Positions 9,880-12,995 of a stretch of 20,879 nucleotides of DNA are shown in pieces (positions within the stretch are counted from its first letter, which is position 1; each line of letters begins with the position of its first letter). A program made the translations under genes and the position numbers. The stretch lies in IMG/VR virus record IMGVR_UViG_3300030333_004295, positions 1 to 20,879 of that record; one strand, written 5' to 3'. Origin of the DNA: a virus. The notes beneath the pieces are model-generated. The model was not told the DNA's origin and ran no database searches. It saw nothing but the letters and a program-made list of their open reading frames with translations.

Positions 9880-10299
9880 TTAAAATTGAAGTTCATCATC
9901 GTCAGGAGAATATTCTACCAACTTTGTTACCATAACAGCTTGAAGTTCAAAGAATTTACCATAGCGATTTTCATAAGGCTTAACTTGGATTTGACCCTCA
10001 GAACCATTTCCAACATTTGCATCTAAAGGCTCTTTGTTTTTATCCAGGAGTTTAGGTGCTTCGTTTTGAATCTCCATCTCTTGTCCTGTTTGACGATCTT
10101 TTATTTTTCTTGAAACCGATCTTTTGGCCGTTATTCGATGTTCACCTTCGTCATTGGTGTTCACTCTAAAACCATCGGATATAAGCTGTTGTGCATCTTC
10201 ATCACTTATTACAGCAGTTACAGTATATTTGTGAGGTTCAAACCTCGTTTGTGGAGTGGTTATACTTGCCCACTCTATAGATAATGCGTTTATTAGCAT
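9880..10299 (-). CDS. Single-stranded DNA-binding protein, DUF2815 / T7 gp2.5-like
   Basis: This 139-residue protein protects single-stranded DNA and coordinates the replisome. It looks like a DUF2815-type phage SSB: an N-terminal beta-rich segment (INALSIEWASITTPQTRFEP, then YTVTAVISDEDAQQL), basic residues in the middle (ITAKRSVSRKIKDRQTG), and YENRYGKFFELQAVMVTKLVEY near the end. The C-terminus DDDELQF is acidic and ends in phenylalanine, as in T7 gp2.5, where this tail contacts polymerase and helicase. ATG 10299 has AGAGAGGA upstream. A 202-base leader with nested inverted repeats precedes it, and a consensus-like promoter lies further upstream at about 10709-10737. Confidence 0.85.
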   Translation of the reverse strand: MLINALSIEWASITTPQTRFEPHKYTVTAVISDEDAQQLISDGFRVNTNDEGEHRITAKRSVSRKIKDRQTGQEMEIQNEAPKLLDKNKEPLDANVGNGSEGQIQVKPYENRYGKFFELQAVMVTKLVEYSPDDDELQF

Positions 10300-10501: not shown

Positions 10502-10678
10502 TTAATCTTTTTCAATTTCTGAGATTCTATCAGTCAATGTAGCTTCCAACTCAGATATCTGATCGGCCAACGAATCTTCCAAGCTTTCAATTCTATCTAG
10601 AACATAAGTGAGTTCGTTGTTTATTTCTTCTACAATAACGATAAGTTTTTCTCTTATAAAATCTTCGTTTACGGACAT
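10502..10678 (-). CDS. 58-residue coiled-coil peptide
   Basis: The product starts MSVNEDFIREKLIVIVEEIN and continues with a regular heptad pattern (LDRIESLEDSLADQISELEA, then TLTDRISEIEKD), so it is almost certainly one long amphipathic helix that self-associates. ATG 10678 is preceded by AAGAGGAAAA at good spacing and lies about 24 bases after the predicted start of transcription from the promoter at 10709-10737, making it the first gene of that transcript. It does not look like a known replication factor. Function unknown; an oligomerisation or host-binding peptide is inferred. Confidence 0.75.
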   Translation of the reverse strand: MSVNEDFIREKLIVIVEEINNELTYVLDRIESLEDSLADQISELEATLTDRISEIEKD

Positions 10679-10708: not shown

Positions 10709-10737
10709 ATTATATCAAATTTTAAAGTTCATTGCAA
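10709..10737 (-). promoter_or_regulatory. Sigma70-type promoter for the replication genes
   Basis: On the minus strand TTGCAA (10737-10732), a 17-base spacer and a perfect TATAAT (10714-10709) are seen. Transcription would start near 10702, just upstream of the 58-residue peptide gene, and continue into SSB, primase-helicase and polymerase. The -35 box lies inside the 3' end of the Mom-like gene. Confidence 0.75.
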
Positions 10738-11361
10738 GTCTTTTCCCAACTTTTTGTTGGTCTTAGGATAAGGTTTAATATCATACCTTATAGCTTTTTT
10801 TAAATGTTTTTTCTGTTTCCTGGATGCTAGTATTTGAATATATCTATGTTTTCTTGGTCTTTGAACCAAAATCGTTCTTTCATTGATGTCTTTTATATCT
10901 GTAGAAATCATATGTCTTCCATGTTTTGTTTTTGATCCATCTACGAAAACTCTATCTGTTCTTTTAGCAGACAATCCTAAGTAAATCCAATTGGTTGCTT
11001 GGTAAACATATCCTACATGATCTTGGTCGCTGTCAGCATAGGATATTATGATACTAGGTTTAGGAAGTAGTTTTAAACTGGAAGCAATTAAAAAACTGGC
11101 TTCATTTTTTTCGTTATGTTTCAAAACTAATCTGTTTAACTCTAAAACTTTTTTAGCATGTTCACGACCACAAAGGCCATCACAAACTCTAGGAGATGCA
11201 GGTGAGCCATATGTTATACAACCAATAAGTTTGTTCTCTTTAAATAAACCAAAAGCATAAGAAACAGAAGGCATCCTCTTTGCATAATGTATGCCAAGAA
11301 TGTAAGGTTTTGTTTCGTTATAACTAATTGGTTTTACTTTATATATTTCTTTCATTTTCAT
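10729..11361 (-). CDS. Mom-like DNA modification protein
   Basis: Mom of phage Mu modifies adenines and blocks host restriction; its relatives have an acetyltransferase-like fold. The 210 residues show the family pattern: HYAKRMPSVSYAFGLFKENK (25-44), LIGCITYGSPASP, LELNRLVL (73-80), ASFLIASSLKLLP and the strongest block SYADSDQDHVGYVYQATNWI (107-126). The C-terminal third is very basic (RKQKKHLKKAIRYDIKPYPK), fitting DNA binding. The frame is open to a TTG at 11406, but I prefer ATG 11361 (or 11355), because the upstream part overlaps a methyltransferase stub in another frame. No Com-like regulator is visible. Modification of phage DNA against host restriction is inferred from family membership; the modified base here is unknown. 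Confidence 0.82.
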   Translation of the reverse strand: MKMKEIYKVKPISYNETKPYILGIHYAKRMPSVSYAFGLFKENKLIGCITYGSPASPRVCDGLCGREHAKKVLELNRLVLKHNEKNEASFLIASSLKLLPKPSIIISYADSDQDHVGYVYQATNWIYLGLSAKRTDRVFVDGSKTKHGRHMISTDIKDINERTILVQRPRKHRYIQILASRKQKKHLKKAIRYDIKPYPKTNKKLGKDLQ

Positions 11362-11461
11362 CGTTTTCACAGAAGGCAACAGTCTTAAACTTGTTTGTGT
11401 TTTCAAGTCCTAGACTGAAACCTCCCATGCCTGTGAATAAATCTAAGACTTTAAGACTCAT
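11339..11461 (-). pseudogene. N-terminal stub of a cytosine-C5 DNA methyltransferase
   Basis: A 40-codon frame starts at ATG 11461, overlapping the stop of the preceding gene (ATGAGTCTTAA), and encodes MSLKVLDLFTGMGGFSLGLE, followed by TVAFCEND. This is the S-adenosylmethionine-binding motif I (DLFxGxGGFSLGL) and motif II (an acidic residue after a beta strand) of Dcm/HhaI-type enzymes. It then runs out of homology and stops at TAA 11341-11339, inside the start of the Mom-like gene, whose frame is shifted by one. Full enzymes are about 300-400 residues with catalytic PCQ; nothing of this remains. It looks like the remnant of a methyltransferase replaced by the Mom-like gene, though a retained short peptide cannot be excluded. 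Confidence 0.8.
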
Positions 11462-11828
11462 AATATCTTAAACGATTCTCATATTTTGAATTAATATCAT
11501 CCATTTTATCTCTGTATTCTGCTTCAAGATATCTTCTTTCTCTTTCTTGCTCATATTTAATACTAGCAATCAGTTCTTTTCTGCGAACAGCAGGTTTGAT
11601 TTCTAAATAGAGTCTCCACTCTTCTGCATATTTACTAGGAAGGTCTTGATCATATCCTCTCGCACTCAATCCATCTTTGATTGCATGTACTTTTCTTTGG
11701 CCATTTGCTCTGAGCCTTCTTTTCAATTGAGGATTCCTAAACTTTTCTTCTAGCTTAAAGAACAAATCTGCTTCCTCTTTTTCTTGTTTGGTTTTGTATG
11801 GTATTCTATAACGATATGCATGTGCCAT
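11451..11828 (-). CDS. Basic charged hypothetical protein
   Basis: This 125-residue protein is rich in Arg, Lys, Glu and Tyr. It starts MAHAYRYRIPYKTKQEKEEA, has a basic middle (NPQLKRRLRANGQRKVHAIK) and a helical C-terminal half with KYEQERERRYLEAEYRDKMD, probably a coiled coil. ATG 11828 is preceded by AAGAGGAAA. Its last codons overlap the start of the methyltransferase stub, so both were, or are, translationally coupled. No domain is recognised. Location beside modification genes may hint at a DNA-binding accessory role; this is inference only. Confidence 0.7.
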   Translation of the reverse strand: MAHAYRYRIPYKTKQEKEEADLFFKLEEKFRNPQLKRRLRANGQRKVHAIKDGLSARGYDQDLPSKYAEEWRLYLEIKPAVRRKELIASIKYEQERERRYLEAEYRDKMDDINSKYENRLRYYES

Positions 11829-11848: not shown

Positions 11849-12103
11849 TTAAATTAATAAATCTTTTTGAAGTTCTTCTACTGTTAAATTAGGATTCTTT
11901 TTAAGTTTTTTATACACCCACCTCAAAGAAAAAGCACTTAACAGATAACGATTGTTTATAAATACATGAGTTTCATTAGGTAAATAACTCTCTAAATTTT
12001 TTAAATTTATTTCTTGTTCGTCTGAAGGCGCAATACTGTTTAACCAACTGGCCAGGAGAATCTTACTTTTCTTTCTGAGTTGTTTAGCTTTCTTTCCGTT
12101 CAT
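11849..12103 (-). CDS. Small hypothetical protein
   Basis: The 84-residue product begins with a basic segment (MNGKKAKQLRKKSKILLASW) and continues with a mixed charged part (EQEINLKNLESYLPNE, then FSLRWVYKKLKKNPNLTVEE). ATG 12103 overlaps the TGA of the preceding gene (ATGA) with GAGGAGGTG upstream. Unlike its acidic upstream neighbours it is basic at the N-terminus. A nucleic acid-binding protein is possible; no family is recognised. Confidence 0.7.
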   Translation of the reverse strand: MNGKKAKQLRKKSKILLASWLNSIAPSDEQEINLKNLESYLPNETHVFINNRYLLSAFSLRWVYKKLKKNPNLTVEELQKDLLI

Positions 12104-12315
12104 TCAGACACCTCCTCCTCTTTCCATATATCCACTATATTCCCATCAACCTCATAAACATATTCGCTATAAGTTAAGTCTGGATCATTCCACAGAGTAT
12201 CAGAACAATGGTCATCAACAGTACCATCCGTATACAAAGCCCTCATTTCTGCATCATCTTCTGCTTCAATTTCAATACAAACAGTTTCTATTCTTGTGAT
12301 TTTATAAGTTTTCAT
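12100..12315 (-). CDS. Acidic mini-protein, DpnD/PcfM-like fold candidate
   Basis: The 71-residue product starts MKTYKITRIETVCIEIEAED, followed by an A-rich helix start and an acidic, Asp-rich C-terminal part. The pattern Y-K-I-T ... E-I-E-A-E-x-x-x-x-A resembles the DpnD/PcfM-like small domain found in phage and plasmid proteins and recurs in neighbouring genes. I choose ATG 12315, which has GAGGAGGTG seven to eight bases upstream and overlaps the end of the preceding gene; the longer frame from 12345 would include that site. It ends in EEEVSE, whose codons form the ribosome binding site of the next gene. Function unknown. Confidence 0.75.
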   Translation of the reverse strand: MKTYKITRIETVCIEIEAEDDAEMRALYTDGTVDDHCSDTLWNDPDLTYSEYVYEVDGNIVDIWKEEEVSE

Positions 12316-12505
12316 TATCAGACACCTCCTCATAAATCCAAGCATCAGCTTCTTCTATTTCAAAATCATAAAAAGTTTCTGGCTCGTTACCCTCTGACAT
12401 TCTATCTTTGTTGTTATCTTCTAACCATTTATCTAAATTGTTAGTAGTAGCTACATAGTCACGATTACCGCAACTGTCATGCCAATATATGTTATATAGA
12501 TTCAT
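12302..12505 (-). CDS. Acidic mini-protein in the coupled array
   Basis: This 67-residue protein begins MNLYNIYWHDSCGNRDYVAT, with a predicted beta hairpin, then an Asn/Asp/Glu-rich helix (NLDKWLEDNNKDRMSEGNEP) and an acidic end (EEVSDNENL). ATG 12505 overlaps the stop of the upstream gene (GAATGA) with GAGGAGGTGTCT just upstream. It is related in style, and perhaps fold, to its neighbours, although the vEAE motif is not clear. No known family recognised. Confidence 0.7.
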   Translation of the reverse strand: MNLYNIYWHDSCGNRDYVATTNNLDKWLEDNNKDRMSEGNEPETFYDFEIEEADAWIYEEVSDNENL

Positions 12506-12654
12506 TCAGACACCTCCTCTAAAAAGTTTTCTATTATTGTTAGTTGATCTTGAATATGCTCGACATCTTTTTGTAGTTCCTCTCCATACACAGCATCAAA
12601 TAAACAGGCAACAGATATACTTGCTTCTTCAACTGCTTCTTTTACTTTACTCAT
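12502..12654 (-). CDS. 50-residue acidic helical protein
   Basis: The product starts MSKVKEAVEEASISVACLFD and is mainly helical and acidic (VEHIQDQLTI, IENFLEEVSE). ATG 12654, or an in-frame ATG directly before it at 12657, overlaps the stop of the upstream gene (ATGATGAGTAA) and has GAGGAGGTGTCT upstream. The last codons encode EEVSE and are the ribosome binding site of the next gene. Short length, but the overlap pattern and strong translation signals support it. Function unknown. Confidence 0.7.
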   Translation of the reverse strand: MSKVKEAVEEASISVACLFDAVYGEELQKDVEHIQDQLTIIENFLEEVSE

Positions 12655-12799
12655 CATTAGACACCTCCTCTATATTACAATCATCTACATACCCATAATC
12701 TGAAAGATTATCAAATTCTTCTTGAGCTTGTTCTTTGTTTTCTGCCTCAACAATACAAACTAAAGTCGTGGTTATTTTATATTCTTTTAGTTTACTCAT
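12647..12799 (-). CDS. 50-residue acidic protein, DpnD/PcfM-like candidate
   Basis: The product starts MSKLKEYKITTTLVCIVEAE, continues NKEQAQEEFDNLSDYGYVDD and ends NIEEVSNDE. The layout KEYKIT-beta-IVEAE-x-x-x-x-A-x-E-E is the same as in the neighbours at 12100-12315 and 12792-12995, so these are probably diverged paralogues. Translation starts at ATG 12799 or 12802, in the overlap with the upstream stop, with GAGGAGGTG upstream. Function unknown. Confidence 0.72.
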   Translation of the reverse strand: MSKLKEYKITTTLVCIVEAENKEQAQEEFDNLSDYGYVDDCNIEEVSNDE

Positions 12800-12995
12800 C
12801 ATCAAACACCTCCTCTAAATCATCAGGGTTAGAAATACATTCCCAATCACCTCCATTAGCATCAACTTCATCAGTAGTGCCACCACCACTTAAAAAGATA
12901 TCAACTGCTTCTTCATAACTGTTAGCTATAACCTCTGTTTCTTCTGTTATTGTTAATGTATTACTAAATATGTATTCTTTTTTTCTCTTACTCAT
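12792..12995 (-). CDS. Acidic mini-protein, DpnD/PcfM-like candidate
   Basis: The 67-residue product begins MSKRKKEYIFSNTLTITEET and continues with a helix (ANSYEEAVDIFLSGGG) and a very acidic C-terminus ending LEEVFDDE. The order basic start, beta hairpin, EV-x-A-x-S-x-E-E-A helix fits the DpnD/PcfM-like pattern. ATG 12995 overlaps the end of the upstream gene and has GAGGAGGA upstream; the frame extends to 13010, but that would place the ribosome binding site within the gene. Function unknown. Confidence 0.75.
   Translation of the reverse strand: MSKRKKEYIFSNTLTITEETEVIANSYEEAVDIFLSGGGTTDEVDANGGDWECISNPDDLEEVFDDE

Follow-up and report, generated by a model that had tools for sequence, protein, structure and literature searches.

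A 40-codon reading frame lying directly before a Mom-like gene in a marine phage is probably the remnant of a C5 cytosine methyltransferase (MTase), most likely produced by deletion from an MTase-mom pair, which now would act as a lead-in to mom in a slot held by alternative alleles. The window, i.e., the whole stretch of DNA that was analysed, comprises 20,879 nucleotides (IMG/VR record IMGVR_UViG_3300030333_004295, positions 1 to 20,879) and belongs to a viral contig of 50,005 bases (GC 34%).

Phages and bacteria are engaged in a restriction arms race, from which a turnover of DNA-modification genes is to be expected, and to our knowledge intermediates of this turnover are seldom seen. The decay of genes and the exchange of modification genes are well known. 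Of the variant in which reciprocal losses preserve the overlap into mom, we found no description in the literature searched, and a search for work on MTase/mom exchange in marine phages found nothing on point. The locus brings together, in one slot, cytosine-MTase-only and mom-only alleles in near-identical phages, the two genes in tandem in relatives, and a third, different MTase in a close relative of the tandem carriers. Two questions become testable here: whether a defunct gene piece persists because translation of the following gene depends on it, and under which restriction pressure Mom has the advantage over cytosine methylation.

The 40-codon frame and its neighbours

The genes of this region lie on the minus strand in the order 125-codon gene, 40-codon frame (hereafter the stub), mom, 58-codon gene, SSB-like gene, primase-helicase and DNA polymerase. 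The features concerned are listed below, with L083 and L084 denoting the two MTase-bearing relatives described in the next section.

11451..11828, minus strand: 125-codon gene of unknown function, sharing 11 nt with the start of the stub and bounding the modification slot upstream
11339..11461, minus strand: 40-codon stub, probable remnant of a C5 cytosine MTase (PF00145, E 1.1e-6; full-length gene with the same start in L083/L084)
11360..11461, minus strand: stub codons 1-34, MTase N-terminus with motif I (FTGMGG, of the form FxGxGG) and motif II (CEND, in AFCEND), from nucleotide identity to L083/L084
11339..11359, minus strand: stub tail ENERNI-stop, matching in frame the tail ENKRNN at the C-terminus of the L083/L084 MTase
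10729..11355, minus strand: Mom-like DNA modification gene, 208 aa (PF25680, E 3.4e-39); alternative in-frame starts ATG 11361 and TTG 11406
10729..10738, minus strand: last codons of mom, CTTGCAATGA, identical in alignment to the last codons of the L083/L084 MTase; the shared 3' flank continues below
10502..10678, minus strand: 58-codon gene, downstream neighbour, common to L083/L084 (100% and 96.6% aa identity)
9880..10299, minus strand: SSB-like gene, conserved throughout the phage group and bounding the modification slot downstream

The original prediction described a 40-codon frame with motifs I and II of a C5-MTase that runs into a Mom-like gene, and both assignments were borne out above profile cut-offs. 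A profile search with the 40-residue product (MSLKVLDLFTGMGGFSLGLENTNKFKTVAFCENDENERNI) matched the Pfam C5 DNA methylase family PF00145 at 28.7 bits (cut-off 22) over profile positions 1-33 of 324, as well as three MTase families of PHROG at about E 1e-8 or better, and the stub is the sole PF00145 match within the 50,005-base parent record. The catalytic PCQ, ENV, motifs VIII and X, RRERVF and the target recognition part are absent from the stub and from the rest of the record. Lacking the catalytic motifs and the remainder of the enzyme, the stub is, as judged from its sequence, not a working methyltransferase. Searches of the record with PF00145, PF01555 and PF05869 for another methyltransferase that might compensate for the loss returned none beyond the stub.

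The Mom-like product scored 135 bits against PF25680 (curated cut-off 27.1) and E 1.5e-55 against phrog_1384, and keeps 37 of the 37 near-invariant columns, i.e., those conserved in at least 95% of 79 relatives, which makes it by profile a full member of the family of phage Mu Mom. It is predicted to modify adenine in the phage DNA, and this modification would protect against host restriction.

The 125-codon gene gave no match above cut-off in a Pfam search and adjoins the MTase in relatives too. The SSB-like label was given by aligning the gene with pelagiphage genes annotated as ssDNA-binding, by position only. By primase, the closest cultured relatives are the pelagiphages HTVC104P and HTVC103P (46% aa identity), which are too distant to fix the host, and a search of bacterial genomes for related loci found none.

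Alternative alleles in related phages

Searching with the neighbouring genes recovered L083 (IMGVR_UViG_3300044448_004681) and L084 (IMGVR_UViG_3300017697_002921). The original prediction had pointed to relatives as the place to look for a full C5-MTase at this locus, and both carry one, of 257 aa, at exactly the place of the stub and without mom. Its motifs are FSGIGG, CEND, PCQ, ENV, RRERVF and GNAVVP; it has the same start codon and the same overlap with the 125-codon gene as the stub, an overlap noted at the outset, and it ends just before the same 58-codon gene. The window frame is thus like this enzyme in its first 34 codons, start, upstream overlap and motifs I and II, but lacks the catalytic motifs and the remaining enzyme. 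Nucleotide identity over stub codons 4-34 is 96.8% to L083 and 94.6% to L084, and the sequence flanking the locus is 96-100% identical between L083 and the window over most of its length, with values mainly of 98-100%, such that near-identical phages carry either the MTase or the stub plus mom.

A chimeric assembly or sequencing error that joined an MTase-only phage to a mom-bearing one might be imagined, given that both kinds of allele occur in near-identical phages. However, a separate contig, L001 (IMGVR_UViG_3300037847_003946), at 99.9% but not complete identity to the window, shares the stub and, to the base, the junction, and the 50-kb record holds no other MTase; we therefore give this explanation practically no credence. 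Since L001 is non-identical and has the same junction, the stub allele is not the error of one assembly. A search with a degenerate junction pattern matched L001 only, and the stub is known from these two sequences.

Other relatives show further states of the locus. In L098 (IMGVR 3300030382_001427) and L099 (IMGVR 3300025122_001405) the MTase and mom stand in tandem between the same flanking genes, with the mom ATG overlapping the MTase stop (AAAAAATGAAAG). Through the MTase, L097 and L098 are 99.5% identical, but L097 is without mom; its clean joint coincides with a direct repeat (about 12 nt, around GAAAA(A)CTAT), a precedent from the sister group for deletion of mom at such a short repeat. 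Only the MTase is present in L092-L096 and L190. In L192, which has an SSB with 100% identity to the L098 protein, the slot holds a different C5-MTase (385 aa, LFDGMSCGQQAL type, PF00145 E 2.5e-47), and MTases of this type are also found in L195, L197 and L199. With MTase-only, tandem, mom-only and different-MTase states among relatives, the stretch from the 125-codon gene to SSB is best read as a variable DNA-modification slot of this phage group.

The mom-less alleles of L083 and L084 are 97% identical, whereas adjacent stretches, among them SSB, show differences of about 12-39% per 100-base block. Because the two phages share this allele despite differing backbones, the slot has been moved between phages by recombination. 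Along the MTase gene itself, the identity of L083 to L098, L096 and L092 runs from 71% to 97% per 90-base block, a mosaic that suggests recombination inside the gene. In the 84-aa gene around 11930-12110, one 100-base block has 65% identity between the window and L083 beside regions of 98-100%, which is a further sign of local recombination.

Two side observations concern the wider group. In L192 (587-1744, against L098 (L193)) only 74 codons remain of the 125-codon gene, and 36 nt of the downstream flank occur a second time ahead of the different C5-MTase. A second, divergent homologue of Mom (about 32% identity over 138 aa) is present in the MTase-only group at L188 452-979, and also in L092 and L093, some 3 kb upstream of the MTase.

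Junction sequences and the direction of change

Where the shared MTase codons stop, the stub continues to its end as GAT GAA AAT GAA AGA AAT ATA TAA, and the L083 MTase ends TAT GAA AAT AAA AGA AAT AAC TTG CAA TGA. Compared from the ATG, the two tails agree at 17 of 18 nt, in the same frame and at the very end of the gene. No other match of at least 15/18 occurs in the L083 locus, and a score of 17 was reached in 2 of 20,000 Markov resamplings (shuffles) of the end of the gene, a chance of about 1e-4. Furthermore, the final 10 nt of mom, together with what follows them, are the same as the end of the L083/L084 MTase and its 3' flank, with the same LQ-stop.

The tail match and the common 3' end of mom and MTase point to an ancestral pair with reciprocal deletions. 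The ancestor would have carried a full C5-MTase directly before an overlapping mom in an operon. In the lineage of the window, an in-frame deletion of ~645 bp relative to L083, covering MTase codons 35-249 (L083 numbering, 215 codons) and ending at a short shared ATG (the deletion joint, 11359-11361), would have removed the MTase between motif II and its final few codons, leaving 40 codons that begin at the original start and close with an apparently original tail and stop. In the sister allele of L083/L084, mom would have been deleted from just inside its start to its last codons and the MTase kept. The MTase-only and mom-only alleles would then be alternative states of one slot, recombining between phages, and both relay overlaps, upstream gene with stub start and stub end with mom start, would have survived. 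We infer the direction of the deletions from what is directly seen, namely both alleles in near-identical backgrounds, the L098/L099 tandem and the matching junction sequences. A frameshift, for which the original prediction had proposed to search reads, is not involved, and frameshift or sequencing error was rejected as the cause of truncation, as the body of the MTase is absent and not merely out of frame.

The mom of L098/L099 is 77% identical to that of the window and is the closest found apart from L001; the two types pair in the tree with moderate support (87/84). Between the window and L098, the divergence of mom (75.7% nt, 42% at fourfold sites) resembles that of primase between the window and L192, a close relative of L098 (69.1%, 37% at fourfold sites), as expected if mom had long been resident in both lineages. 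These values bear on a true replacement, in which mom from another phage entered an MTase-only locus by recombination, so that the MTase broke off after codon 34 and was rejoined within its final codons. We consider this route unlikely. It would suit the MTase-only state of the nearest relatives L083/L084, and likewise of L092-L096 and L190, a slot that recombines between lineages, and the resident MTase replaced by another in L192; yet it leaves the in-frame tail match to the MTase C-terminus as coincidence and the L098/L099 tandem unused, and the divergence of mom fits that of primase, not a recent import. The earlier view of one modification gene replacing another hence stands as to the outcome, but less so as to the route, given the tandem and the reciprocal-deletion junctions.

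Against the preferred reading, deletion from a pair, it counts that the window's own subgroup yielded no tandem with a window-like mom and that mom could have returned to the line of the window after recombination of the slot. As the slot has moved by recombination, more than one state could have been the last ancestral one in this line.

Translation of mom and comparison with phage Mu

The stub runs 14 nt beyond the mom ATG (11355) before its stop, in a frame other than that of mom, and the 5' flank of mom in the window reads …ATGAAAATGAAAGAAATATATAA. The overlaps from the 125-codon gene to the stub and on to mom mean that ribosomes finishing one frame can start the next. Pairing with the anti-Shine-Dalgarno sequence is -2.7 kcal/mol at the stub start and -2.1 at the two ATG starts of mom, against -5.8 to -15.6 kcal/mol for most window genes. 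The claim that mom has no strong ribosome binding site of its own is thereby upheld for both ATGs, with the nuance that the in-frame TTG at 11406, an alternative mom start, has an SD-like GGGAGG upstream (-11.4) which is formed by the motif I codons. The MTase and mom of L098 are also without Shine-Dalgarno (-2.7 and -1.8, respectively), and weak pairing is common for mom in other phages, with 46/76 weaker than -4.

Because neither the stub nor the mom ATGs have a Shine-Dalgarno, the stub is plausibly, as was first suggested, a translational lead-in that hands ribosomes to mom, and we infer translational coupling from one to the other. A stronger version, in which an exchangeable MTase/mom pair underwent reciprocal deletions and the dead MTase start is kept by selection as an obligatory lead-in to mom, is possible, though we hold it to be doubtful.

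In phage Mu, a small upstream frame controls mom (PMC6483171). The com-mom operon of Mu and the window both have a short frame directly before mom, with mom translation apparently tied to the upstream region (PMC6483171). However, Mu has the zinc-finger activator Com, whereas the stub has no zinc finger (one cysteine) and matches C5-MTases, so that the predicted Mom stands behind an MTase remnant and that of Mu behind com. The mom start of the window is also without a stable hairpin (-3.2 kcal/mol, weaker than the shuffle mean, z +1.27). Com-like regulation was rejected for want of zinc finger and hairpin, and simple coupling by overlap is likely, not an RNA-binding activator such as Mu Com.

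The same data weigh on the suggestion, made in the original prediction, of a real short SAM-binding peptide. A functional SAM-binding or regulatory peptide kept for its own sake, e.g., a Com-like mom activator, would agree with the intact start and frame and with the control of mom by a small upstream frame in Mu (PMC6483171), but we judge it highly improbable, as PCQ, ENV, RRERVF and the target recognition part are gone, the single cysteine allows no zinc finger, no hairpin is found at the mom start, and both unique substitutions fall in motif I. These window-specific substitutions, S10T and I12M, are both nonsynonymous, and the resulting FTGMGG variant occurs in 1 of 56 enzymes, that of the window alone; the four differences between L083 and L084 in the motif I region are all synonymous. 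From this comparison the stub peptide itself looks unneeded, the counts being too small for a firm test.

A programmed frameshift fusing the stub to Mom was also considered and rejected; by eye, there is no slippery heptamer in the stub frame near GAAAACGATGAAAATG.

Elsewhere in the window, positions 12100-12830 hold a run of small acidic genes, several of them preceded by a near-identical strong Shine-Dalgarno stretch (GAGGAGGTGTCTGA). On the plus strand, 149-907 encodes a protein of unknown function in which an NTAVGN/NTAVG motif is repeated within a Ser/Thr/Asn-rich stretch.
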